Source: Halobium salinum
GTDB taxonomy: Archaea; Halobacteriota; Halobacteria; Halobacteriales; Haloferacaceae
Reading direction: 5' to 3'
Length of the DNA: 54,788 bases
Assembly: GCF_026586625.1 (NCBI RefSeq)
Contig: NZ_JAODIW010000006.1
Span: 320,161-374,948 of the forward strand
The position numbers and the translations under genes were made by a program. This document shows, one piece after another, positions 38,726 to 41,677 of the stretch (position 1 is the first letter of the stretch; each line of letters starts with the position of its first letter). The notes beneath the pieces are model-generated. The model had not been told where the DNA came from. It did no database searches and saw only the letters and a list, made by a program, of their open reading frames with translations.

Positions 38726-39301
38726 ATGACGACCGACGACACCGGGGACGTCGAGGCCACCGAGAACGCCGGGGAGTACGCGGAACTCGTCGCGGCGCTT
38801 CGCGACGCTGACGCGGTCCAGTTCGGCGAGTTCGAACTCTCACACGGCGGCACCAGCGACTACTACGTCGACAAGTACCTCTTCGAGACCGACCCCCAGT
38901 GTCTCCGACTCATCGCGGAGGCGTTCGCCGAGCGCGTCGAGTCGCTGGGGGCGACGAAACTCGCGGGCGTCGCACTCGGCGCCGTCCCCCTCGTGGCCGT
39001 CACGAGCGTCGAGACCGACCTTCCCTACGTCATCGCCCGGAAGCAGGCGAAGGAGTACGGCACGGCCAAGCGCATCGAGGGCCGCCTCGACGACGGCGAG
39101 GAGGTGCTCGTCCTGGAGGACATCGCGACGACCGGCCAGTCGGCCGTCGACGCCGTCGAAGCCCTGCGCGAGGCCGGCGCCGAGGTGAACCGCGTGCTCG
39201 TCGTCGTCGACCGCGAGGAGGGGGCGAGCGACCTGCTCGCCGACCACGACGTGGAACTCGACTCGCTGCTGACGGCGTCTGACCTGCTCGCGGACCGTTG
39301 A
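38726..39301 (+). CDS. pyrE: Orotate phosphoribosyltransferase
   Basis: This 191-residue enzyme converts orotate and PRPP to orotidine 5'-phosphate in pyrimidine synthesis. It has the type I phosphoribosyltransferase fold: [52 protein letters not shown], and the PRPP loop [20 protein letters not shown]. The first 15 residues are an acidic tail. A CTGTTTT box about 29 nt upstream indicates its own promoter. It precedes the regulator gene by 112 nt. Confidence 0.94.
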
Positions 39302-39384
39302 AGTGGGCACCGACCCGCCCGGCACCCGCGGTACCGACTCCCACGACCGTGCACATTCTTTCGCGACCTCGATACCGGAGTGTT

Positions 39385-39408
39385 CATACTCGTGCGATAG
39401 TGAGTATG
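39385..39408. promoter_or_regulatory. Palindromic operator candidate over the regulator's own promoter
   Basis: CATACTC (39385-39391) and GAGTATG (39402-39408) are perfect 7-bp inverted half-sites with a 10-nt spacer. The site overlaps the TATA-like TCATACT, 27 nt before the ATG at 39414, the classic position for repression. Related half-sites occur before the adjacent permease gene. Confidence 0.6.
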
Positions 39409-39413
39409 CGGGC

Positions 39414-40127
39414 ATGAACCGAGCCGAGAAGGCGGCCCTCCAGTTGCAGGCGGTCGCCGTCCTGCGGATGCTGAAGGAGACGCGGACGTACGACGAACTC
39501 GCCGACCTCACCGGCCTGCCGGCGGGCGACCTCAACCGGTACGTGAACGGGCACGTCCTCCCGGGCGTCGAACGCGCCCACGAGGTCGTCGACGGCGTCG
39601 GGCGCGACGCGCTCTCCGACGAACTCGAAGCCCGCGTCGCCTTCGACGAGGAGGGGTACGTCGACAACTCCGCGGTCGTCTTCGACCAGTCCTTTCTCGA
39701 CCTCGTCGCCCCCGTCGCCGCCAACGCCTTCGGCTTCGAACGCCCCGACGTGGTGCTGACGGCGGCCACCGACGGCATCACACTCGGCGCGGCGATGGCC
39801 TCCTACTTCGACGCACGCCTCGCCTACGCGAAGAAGTCCAAGGAGACCGCCGTCGAGGAGTTCATCGAGTCCCGCCAGCGCCTCGCCTCCGGCATCGAAC
39901 TCACCTACTACCTCCCCGCCAGCGCGCTCTCCTCCGGTCAGCGCGTGCTCGTCGTCGACGACCTCATCCGGTCGGGCGAGACTCAGGAACTGCTGCTCGA
40001 CATCGCCCTCCAGGCCGACGCGTCGGTGACGGGCGTGTTCGCACTCATCGCCGTCGGCGACGAGGGTATCGACCGCGCCGAGACGCTCGTGGACGCCCCG
40101 GTCGGTGCGCTGTCGACGTTCGAGTAG
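39414..40127 (+). CDS. HTH-phosphoribosyltransferase fusion regulator (purine-type)
   Basis: A 237-residue protein. Residues 1-55 hold an HTH (YDELADLTGLPAGDLNRYVN), and the rest a type I phosphoribosyltransferase domain with GITLGAAMASYFDARLAYAK and an intact PRPP loop VLVVDDLIRSGETQELL (about residue 182). PurR of Bacillus and archaeal GfcR have this overall design, using PRPP binding to control DNA binding. The N-terminal sequence differs from GfcR, so this is a separate subfamily. Position beside pyrE and a purine permease, plus an operator-like palindrome over its promoter, suggests control of nucleobase uptake and autoregulation. Enzymatic activity is possible but not shown. Confidence 0.85.
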   Translation: MNRAEKAALQLQAVAVLRMLKETRTYDELADLTGLPAGDLNRYVNGHVLPGVERAHEVVDGVGRDALSDELEARVAFDEEGYVDNSAVVFDQSFLDLVAPVAANAFGFERPDVVLTAATDGITLGAAMASYFDARLAYAKKSKETAVEEFIESRQRLASGIELTYYLPASALSSGQRVLVVDDLIRSGETQELLLDIALQADASVTGVFALIAVGDEGIDRAETLVDAPVGALSTFE

Positions 40128-40170
40128 ACGAGTCCCCGCCGCCCGATTCGCTAAGGTTGTACGTGTTCGT

Positions 40171-40224
40171 GCATACTCTATCGGCCCCGTTTCCGAACGC
40201 TTATGAGGAGTAGCACGAATATGC
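40171..40224. promoter_or_regulatory. Spaced half-sites flanking the permease TATA box
   Basis: GCATACTC (40171-40178) and GAATATGC (40217-40224) are inverted relative to each other and match the half-site of the upstream palindrome (GAGTATGC, 7 to 8 of 8). They straddle the TATA-like CGCTTATGAG (about 40198-40207). Centre-to-centre spacing is about 46 bp versus 17 bp at the other site. Confidence 0.5.
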
Positions 40225-40237
40225 TCACTCACGCGTA

Positions 40238-41677
40238 ATGGGCACCGATACGAGCACGGAGACCAGCGGGCAGTCGGGGGGACGCCTCGCCGACTACTTC
40301 GACCTCGAAGCGCACGATACGACCGTCACGACCGAGGTGCTGGCGGGGCTGACGACGTTCCTGACGATGTCCTACATCGTCATCGTCAACCCGTCCATCA
40401 TGGCCGGTATCCCCGGCGAGAAGCCGGGCATCGTCGTCTCCGGCTTCAGCCACGGCCAGGTGGTGTCGATGCTCGCGGTCGTCACCATCCTCGCGGCCGC
40501 GGTCGCCACCCTCGTCATGGCGTTCTACGCCAACCGGCCGTTCGCGCAGGCGCCCGGCCTCGGCCTGAACGCCTTCTTCGCGTTCACCGTCGTCGGCGCG
40601 CTCGGCATCCCGTGGCAGACCGCCCTCGCCGCCGTCGTCGTCGAGGGGATACTCTTCGTCGCCCTCACCGCCGTCGGCGCCCGCGAGTACGTCATCCGGC
40701 TGTTTCCCGAACCGGTGAAGTTCGCCGTCGGCACCGGTATCGGCCTCTTTCTCACCATCATCGGTTTGCAGGAGATGAACCTCGTCGTCGACGACCCGGC
40801 GACGCTCGTCACCCTCGGACCGGTCGCCTCCGACCCCGTGGCCGCGCTCTCGGTGGTCGGCCTCTTCCTCACCTTCGCGCTGTACGCCCGCGGTATCCGC
40901 GGGTCCATCGTGCTCGGCATCGCGGCTACGACGGTCGTCGGCTACGGTCTGACGGCGCTCGGCGTCGTCTCCGCTGACGCCGGACTCACCGGCGCCGCGA
41001 CCGCCGCCGCGACCTACGACATCACCCCGCTCGCGGGGGCGTTCCTCTCGGGCCTCTCGGACGTCGACGGGCTCGCCTTCGCGCTCGTCGTGTTCACGTT
41101 CTTCTTCGTCGACTTCTTCGACACCGCCGGCACGCTCGTCGGCGTCGGCCAGGCCGGCGACTTCCTCGACGAGGACGGCGACCTCCCGGACATCGACAGG
41201 CCGCTGATGGCGGACGCCGTCGGTACCACGGTCGGGGGGATGCTCGGCACCTCGACGGTGACGACGTACATCGAGTCCGCCGCCGGCGTCGAGGAGGGCG
41301 GACGCACCGGACTCACCGCCCTCACCGTCGGCGTGCTCTTCCTGCTCTCGCTCGCGCTCGTCCCGCTCGCGACCGCGGTCCCGCTGTACGCCTCACACAT
41401 CGCGCTCGTCGTCATCGGCGTCGTGATGCTCGGCAACGTCGTCGACATCGCGTGGGACGACATCACCTACGCCGTCCCGGCCGGCATGACCATCCTCGTG
41501 ATGCCCTTCACGTTCTCCATCGCGTACGGCATCGCCGCCGGCATCGTCTCCTACCCCATCGTCAAGGTGTTCGCCGGTCGCGCCGACGAGCTCCGCCTCG
41601 GCCACCTCGCACTCGCCGGCGCGTTCGTCGTCTACTTTTTCGTCCGGACGAGCGGTCTGCTCGCCGCGTCGGTCTGA
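40238..41677 (+). CDS. NCS2-family purine permease (AzgA/PbuG type)
   Basis: This 479-residue transporter with about 13 membrane segments is probably a proton symporter for adenine, guanine or hypoxanthine. Family landmarks are TTEVLAGLTTFLTMSYIVIV, the first signature QAPGLGLNAFFAFTVVG, GLFLTIIGLQEMN, the second signature FFFVDFFDTAGTLVGVG, and LGTSTVTTYIESAAGVEEGG. These point to the AzgA-like (adenine/guanine) rather than the uracil/xanthine branch. It lies 110 nt after the HTH-PRT regulator and has candidate operator half-sites in front. Confidence 0.93.
   Translation: MGTDTSTETSGQSGGRLADYFDLEAHDTTVTTEVLAGLTTFLTMSYIVIVNPSIMAGIPGEKPGIVVSGFSHGQVVSMLAVVTILAAAVATLVMAFYANRPFAQAPGLGLNAFFAFTVVGALGIPWQTALAAVVVEGILFVALTAVGAREYVIRLFPEPVKFAVGTGIGLFLTIIGLQEMNLVVDDPATLVTLGPVASDPVAALSVVGLFLTFALYARGIRGSIVLGIAATTVVGYGLTALGVVSADAGLTGAATAAATYDITPLAGAFLSGLSDVDGLAFALVVFTFFFVDFFDTAGTLVGVGQAGDFLDEDGDLPDIDRPLMADAVGTTVGGMLGTSTVTTYIESAAGVEEGGRTGLTALTVGVLFLLSLALVPLATAVPLYASHIALVVIGVVMLGNVVDIAWDDITYAVPAGMTILVMPFTFSIAYGIAAGIVSYPIVKVFAGRADELRLGHLALAGAFVVYFFVRTSGLLAASV

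Follow-up and report, generated by a model that had tools for sequence, protein, structure and literature searches.

In Hbt. salinarum, expression of purine genes drops as purines rise, an effect assigned to a postulated further factor (Todor et al. 2015, PMC4540570). The open-access papers that we found name no haloarchaeal protein as a regulator of de novo purine synthesis. The 54.8-kb stretch of Halobium salinum DNA analyzed here (hereafter, the window) carries, beside a purine permease gene, a gene encoding a protein that joins a helix-turn-helix (HTH) to a phosphoribosyltransferase (PRT) domain. The question raised by this locus is whether that protein controls purine genes and, if so, through which DNA sites and in which direction. 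Comparison of promoters and genomes makes us confident that the protein encoded at 39414-40127 very probably governs the purine regulon of haloarchaea, under a model in which it would act as a cooperative repressor.

The candidate regulator and its neighbors

The regulator gene lies on the forward strand, starts with ATG at 39414, ends at 40127, and specifies 237 amino acids. The protein belongs to the family NF006328, named adenine phosphoribosyltransferase (PRK08558, NCBIfam; 352.9 bits against a cut-off of 184), as do its orthologs. Its C-terminal portion is a type-I PRT domain (PF00156, 39.6 bits in Pfam), and its N-terminal HTH gives, in Pfam, a weak HTH_31 match alone. The AlphaFold model (pLDDT 85, pTM 0.81) displays four N-terminal helices and the type-I PRT fold, and residues 1-74 form no wing strands. 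Among 31 orthologs, the HTH segment DLNRYVNGHVLP does not vary, and NRYVNGHVLP in the HTH is likewise invariant, a wider set included. Within the PRPP loop, VDDLIRSGETQ, the residues DDLIRSGET are invariant in the same 31 proteins, as is VDDLIRSGET except for one conservative position. While the family name implies an enzyme, the evidence assembled below points to a DNA-binding regulator, a sign that the name may mislead where haloarchaeal members are concerned.

The nearest named orthologs occur in Halogranum (89-91% identity). A match to the regulator gene is present in 320 of 391 sampled genomes of the class (E<=0.001; a few of these matches are weak and PRT-only), and in a sample of the phylum all 46 of 46 above-cut-off matches fall in the order to which the window organism belongs. 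One genome additionally has a stretch of 54 amino acids that resembles the HTH part alone (G004:C1:192409-192570; 61% identity), approximately 2 kb away from its complete regulator gene.

Gene order in the window is pyrE, regulator, permease. The permease gene (40238-41677, forward strand; PF00860, 128 bits) is AzgA-like by sequence resemblance and is a predicted target of the regulator; in nearly every one of 80 named orthologous loci, a permease relative comes directly 3' of the regulator. The pyrE gene, encoding orotate phosphoribosyltransferase (38726-39301, forward strand; TIGR00336, 150 bits), sits directly 5' of the regulator in many Haloferacaceae loci; among the Halorubrum loci inspected, none was found with pyrE next to the regulator. 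No operator was found at pyrE.

Predicted paired operators at the regulator and permease promoters

Orthologous promoters define a dyad, (T)NCACR-NN-YGTGN(ATA), present in two copies per promoter, which we call O1 (distal) and O2 (proximal). At the regulator promoter, predicted O1 is CACG-AC-CGTG at 39342-39351 (extended form CCCACGACCGTGCACAT, 39340-39356). Scored with an ortholog-trained matrix, it is the best site in the window (14.2 bits), and among 85 orthologous regulator promoters, 65 carry a CCACG-NN-CGTGG dyad 41-42 bp 5' of TATA/O2. Predicted O2, CATA-CT-CGTG at 39385-39394, overlaps the TATA box, and its center is 43 bp from that of O1. The O2 form CAYRNNYGTG is found in 41 of the 85 promoters, and in 66 when up to one mismatch is allowed. 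A gene-blind search of the organism's own genome recovers this same pair (G000:C11:359502-359554). The putative BRE and TATA elements (ACCGGAG and TGTTCATA; 39374-39388, forward strand), apparently of a leaderless-type promoter, align with the conserved ortholog sequence TCGAnGTATTCATA.

At the permease promoter, predicted O1 is CGTG-TT-CGTG at 40162-40171 (extended form TACGTGTTCGTGCATAC, 40160-40176), which scores 10.9 bits (p=0.006 versus shuffles) and stands at a distance of 34/35 from the TATA box, equal to that in most orthologous permeases. Predicted O2, CACG-AA-TATG at 40214-40223, scores 9.6 bits in the window scan and lies 3' of the TATA box, its center 52 bp from that of O1. Between them are BRE and TATA elements CCGAACG and CTTATG (40193-40205, forward strand); GNAACGCTTAWG is conserved in orthologs. 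In many cases, adjoining permease promoters carry the CCACG-NN-CGTGG dyad at a fixed distance from TATA. An intermediate dyad of our own on the proximal box, TTC-N4-TTG-NN-CAA-N4-GA, was discarded when we recognized the box as the distal operator in degenerate form (CAYRNNYGTG).

An earlier note on this DNA had parsed these promoters differently. It described a perfect inverted site, CATACTC-N10-GAGTATG, over the regulator TATA box, and two matching half-sites spaced about 29 bp wider at the permease. The inverted site is indeed exact (39385-39408), and the genome scan that the note had suggested, which we ran, yields a single occurrence in 4.46 Mb, with none for the reversed-pattern control. 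Conservation tells against it. We compared 85 non-redundant ortholog promoters from nine families, all under 70% identical. At 6 or more of 7 positions, 34 of them keep the left half, while the right half (39402-39408) is so kept in 4 and missing from 81, with a mean match of 3.5 of 7. Both halves are kept in only two promoters, that of the window and that of one Natrialbaceae-type genome. Conservation of the left half reflects its place in the TATA box and in a true operator, the regulator's O2 (CATACTCGTG). At the permease, the supposed half-sites are an exact CATACTC (40172-40178), which is the right edge of the distal operator, and GAATATG (40217-40223; one mismatch to GAGTATG), which is the right half of the proximal operator. 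Absent in front of orthologous genes, the GAGTATG half-sites fail as an operator, the pairing set about 29 bp wider at the permease is not supported, and on comparative grounds the exact palindrome is a mis-parsed one. That CATACTC-N10-GAGTATG is nonetheless the operator, with a regulon of regulator and permease only, we regard as vanishingly improbable: its perfect 7+7 repeat and uniqueness in the genome speak for it, but the right half is missing from those 81 promoters, and the other dyad accounts for both promoters and for the pathway. The note's idea of paired sites on one helical face was right, with the wrong letters; the operator pairs are 42-43 or 52-53 bp apart.

The motif tracks the regulator

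A matrix trained on regulator promoters only was then scored on other genes. Among unlinked permease genes of Natrialbaceae-type genomes that carry the regulator, 12 of 13 have a site of 10.5-20.9 bits approximately 80 bp upstream, whereas none of 14 permeases in regulator-less genomes has the motif (maximum 6.4 bits). This contrast gives a Fisher value of 7e-7, with relatedness ignored; the start codon assignment for the permease of genome G047 is uncertain. Likewise, 13 of 15 purS promoters in regulator-bearing genomes score at least 12.2 bits, compared to 0 of 15 in regulator-less genomes, where none exceeds 7.7 bits (Mann-Whitney p=3e-5). The regulator-bearing genomes in which the motif is absent at purS, G183 and G050, have divergent regulators (71% and 64% identity), and the operator may have changed there.

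The regulator-less genomes span several families (in our numbering, f1 g14; f3 g25, g29, g39, and g46; f4 g40; f8 g41), from which we infer that the motif was lost together with the regulator more than once. The link between motif and regulator is correlative, and might be owed to a different factor with a matching phyletic pattern. In one regulator-less genome (L274, G080), the purS promoter still has a proximal box that looks like a relic, CCCCACGGCCGCGCAGG, as would fit a recent loss of the regulator.

The predicted regulon

Searches made without reference to genes delineate the candidate targets. In 25 regulator-bearing genomes, exact TNCACRNNYGTGNATA has 71 strand matches and the reversed pattern 5; in the 25 genomes that lack the regulator, the counts are 5 and 6, respectively, with no excess. 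In the regulator-bearing genomes, 50 of 57 unique exact sites lie directly 5' of purine or one-carbon genes or of permease genes. Specifically, the sites precede purS or purS/purU (12), purF (9), purA, purL, and purB/purN-purH (5 each), the permease and folD (4 each), purD (3), guaB (2), and glyA (1). Target identities were confirmed by NCBIfam, and the distance from site to gene is nearly constant per gene. A paired-pattern search adds purC and further guaB, purA, purF, and folD/glyA sites. For the other 7 of the 57 sites, the nearest 350 bp contain no purine gene. Judged by sequence resemblance, one example is near a nadA-like gene and another near a gene for a TAXI-type binding protein; these 7 sites may be chance occurrences.

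The window's own genome has no match to the exact consensus. It has one-mismatch sites 5' of purS, purF, purL, and purB/purNH, and operator pairs at the regulator, at purS, and near gcvPA. Upstream of gcvPA (L341:1969-2142; G000:C11 ~1040368-1040541) are several boxes of the CACG-NN-CGTG type, 52 and 43 bp apart, so that gcvPA (glycine cleavage) may be another of the regulator's one-carbon targets. In five loci (L183, L201, L213, L219, and L334), purA is divergent from a gene for a conserved, DNA-binding-like protein of ~101 amino acids (MIDRLEKEVDMLERHLQVLKMVIESEPIGIVKMSNETGYPHHKVRYSL).

These results bear on what the earlier note had predicted for the protein. Its expectation that an HTH-PRT protein regulates purine genes, including its own gene and the adjacent permease, gains support: the motif precedes purine genes, tracks the presence of the regulator, and occurs at both promoters. 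The predicted regulon is, in turn, far wider than the purine uptake to which the note had confined it, since the motif is found upstream of nearly the entire pathway for de novo purine synthesis and one-carbon metabolism.

Operator spacing and phasing

Measured from the top-scoring site, the best second site lies 42-43 bp downstream at the regulator, purS, purL, folD, purD, guaB, and glyA, at 45/43 bp at purF, and at 52-53 bp at the permease and purB, the permease orthologs peaking at 53; some of these genes are represented by very few sequences. Gene-blind pairs with spacings of 38-57 bp number at least 139 in regulator-bearing genomes; among the pairs listed, spacings of 42 (43 pairs), 43 (13), and 52 (14) stand out. 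In regulator-less genomes, the corresponding counts are 13 at 42, 2 at 43, 5 at 52, and 0 at 53, amounting to a coding-period background, and the enrichment is weaker there (Fisher p=4e-6). A point against our reading is that 42 bp is a multiple of three and that the coding-sequence background peaks there too. The two spacing classes correspond to four and five helical turns. Across genes, it is the O1-O2 distance that is constant, while the O1-TATA distance differs by gene. At most promoters, the pair overlies some of the core promoter, within the region from the upstream BRE edge to the start.

A model for purine control and its rivals

We propose that a dimer of the regulator would bind the dyad (T)NCACR-NN-YGTGN(ATA), and that two dimers on one face of the DNA would occupy O1 and O2 cooperatively, blocking TBP, TFB, and RNA polymerase. 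Repression, including autorepression, would ensue. The PRT domain would sense purine status via its PRPP/nucleotide pocket, with the operator released when purines are scarce. Targets would comprise the regulator's own gene, the AzgA-like permease, purS/purU, purF, purL, purA, purB/purN-purH, purD, and purC, together with folD, glyA, and guaB from one-carbon and purine metabolism. Direct binding, dimerization, and repression are what we infer for this protein; the PRT pocket is a likely sensor, and PRPP is a plausible ligand. In an Hbt. salinarum trmB mutant, purine genes are up while PRPP and purines are both thought to be low (PMC4540570); thus, a purine-responsive repressor fits these data better than does release by PRPP alone.

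The constant O1-O2 distance and the position of the pair over the core promoter favor cooperative repression over activation, and we consider such repression probable. The sign of regulation is uncertain because O1 is often wholly upstream of the BRE, where archaeal factors commonly activate. The same protein and operators could, then, serve mainly for activation, with O1 bound when purines are low to recruit TBP/TFB and O2 used for autorepression only. PurR of Lactococcus is an activator of purine genes. In several promoters O1 lies upstream of the BRE at a fixed distance, and archaeal TrmB systems activate from upstream sites and repress from downstream ones (PMC10817205). Yet O1-TATA distances depend on the gene while the operators keep their distance from each other, and O2 overlaps the TATA box or the start region in most promoters, leaving activation a credible but unlikely account. 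A further variant, which we think rather doubtful, makes the protein a "trigger enzyme," which would repress the entire purine regulon and at the same time be an active purine phosphoribosyltransferase. Its PRT site, through turnover or through occupancy by a purine base and PRPP or by AMP/GMP, would then directly set cooperative binding to the phased operator pairs across the core promoter.

Other readings deny the protein its role at the DNA. Another transcription factor might bind CACG-NN-CGTG, the HTH-PRT protein being only a co-regulated salvage enzyme, as its NF006328 family name and its intact PRPP loop and type-I PRT fold would allow. The nearly invariant N-terminal HTH, the disappearance of the motif at purS and at the permease where members of several families have no regulator, and its presence at the regulator's own promoter render this improbable. 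Control of the purine genes by TrmB, with the operators as TrmB sites, is more improbable still. Weak TrmB binding at purine genes has been reported in Hbt. salinarum, but the authors of that study conclude that its action is indirect and call on another factor or mechanism (PMC4540570). Together with the co-occurrence of motif and HTH-PRT protein, that conclusion led us to rule TrmB out as the direct regulator. Haloarchaeal TrmB, a global metabolic regulator affecting purine genes indirectly (PMC4540570), also belongs to another sequence family; the window regulator matches no TrmB family in Pfam or NCBIfam.

Relation to known regulators and significance

As the earlier note had surmised, the haloarchaeal regulator resembles PurR and is distinct from GfcR. 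By sequence, its best solved relative is Bacillus subtilis PurR (TIGR01743; PDB 1p4a, 1o57, and 7rmw), with which it shares an N-terminal DNA-binding region followed by a C-terminal type-I PRT domain; a Foldseek comparison with 1p4a gives E=1.5e-11 and 18% identity by structure match. The type of regulon, namely purine synthesis, one-carbon metabolism, and purine transport, is likewise shared (in silico, from the 50 of 57 sites), as is the use of two boxes per promoter. There are also differences. The regulator misses the PurR family score (TIGR01743, 41.6 bits versus a cut-off of 258.7) and has no Pfam match to PuR_N, the winged helix of B. subtilis PurR. That protein uses 14-bp PurBoxes with a 16-17 bp spacer (PMC8789054). 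These are CGAA boxes spaced about three turns apart, in contrast to CACG-N2-CGTG boxes four or five turns apart in haloarchaea, where, unlike in B. subtilis, the operators flank an archaeal TATA/BRE promoter. B. subtilis PurR is released from DNA by PRPP, and nucleotides counter the release; for haloarchaea, the data in PMC4540570 speak against PRPP as the sole signal. Most likely, then, the regulator is PurR-like in its logic and its PRT domain, with another DNA-binding domain and another operator.

GfcR (NF045507) has the same haloarchaeal HTH and PRT architecture. The window regulator has no match to NF045507 (cut-off 300) at E<=0.001, and GfcR membership was rejected on that basis. The targets also differ: as cited in PMC11519228, GfcR activates the genes for GAPDH I and pyruvate kinase, in sugar degradation.

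The analysis supplies a candidate gene, an operator, a spacing rule, and a target list for the factor postulated in PMC4540570, and its targets and operators are open to test in model haloarchaea such as Haloferax volcanii. The two-operator layout around TATA/BRE offers a clean system for studies of archaeal repression. More broadly, our findings suggest that HTH-plus-PRT control of purine genes operates in both archaea and Firmicutes, with different DNA-binding domains and operators.
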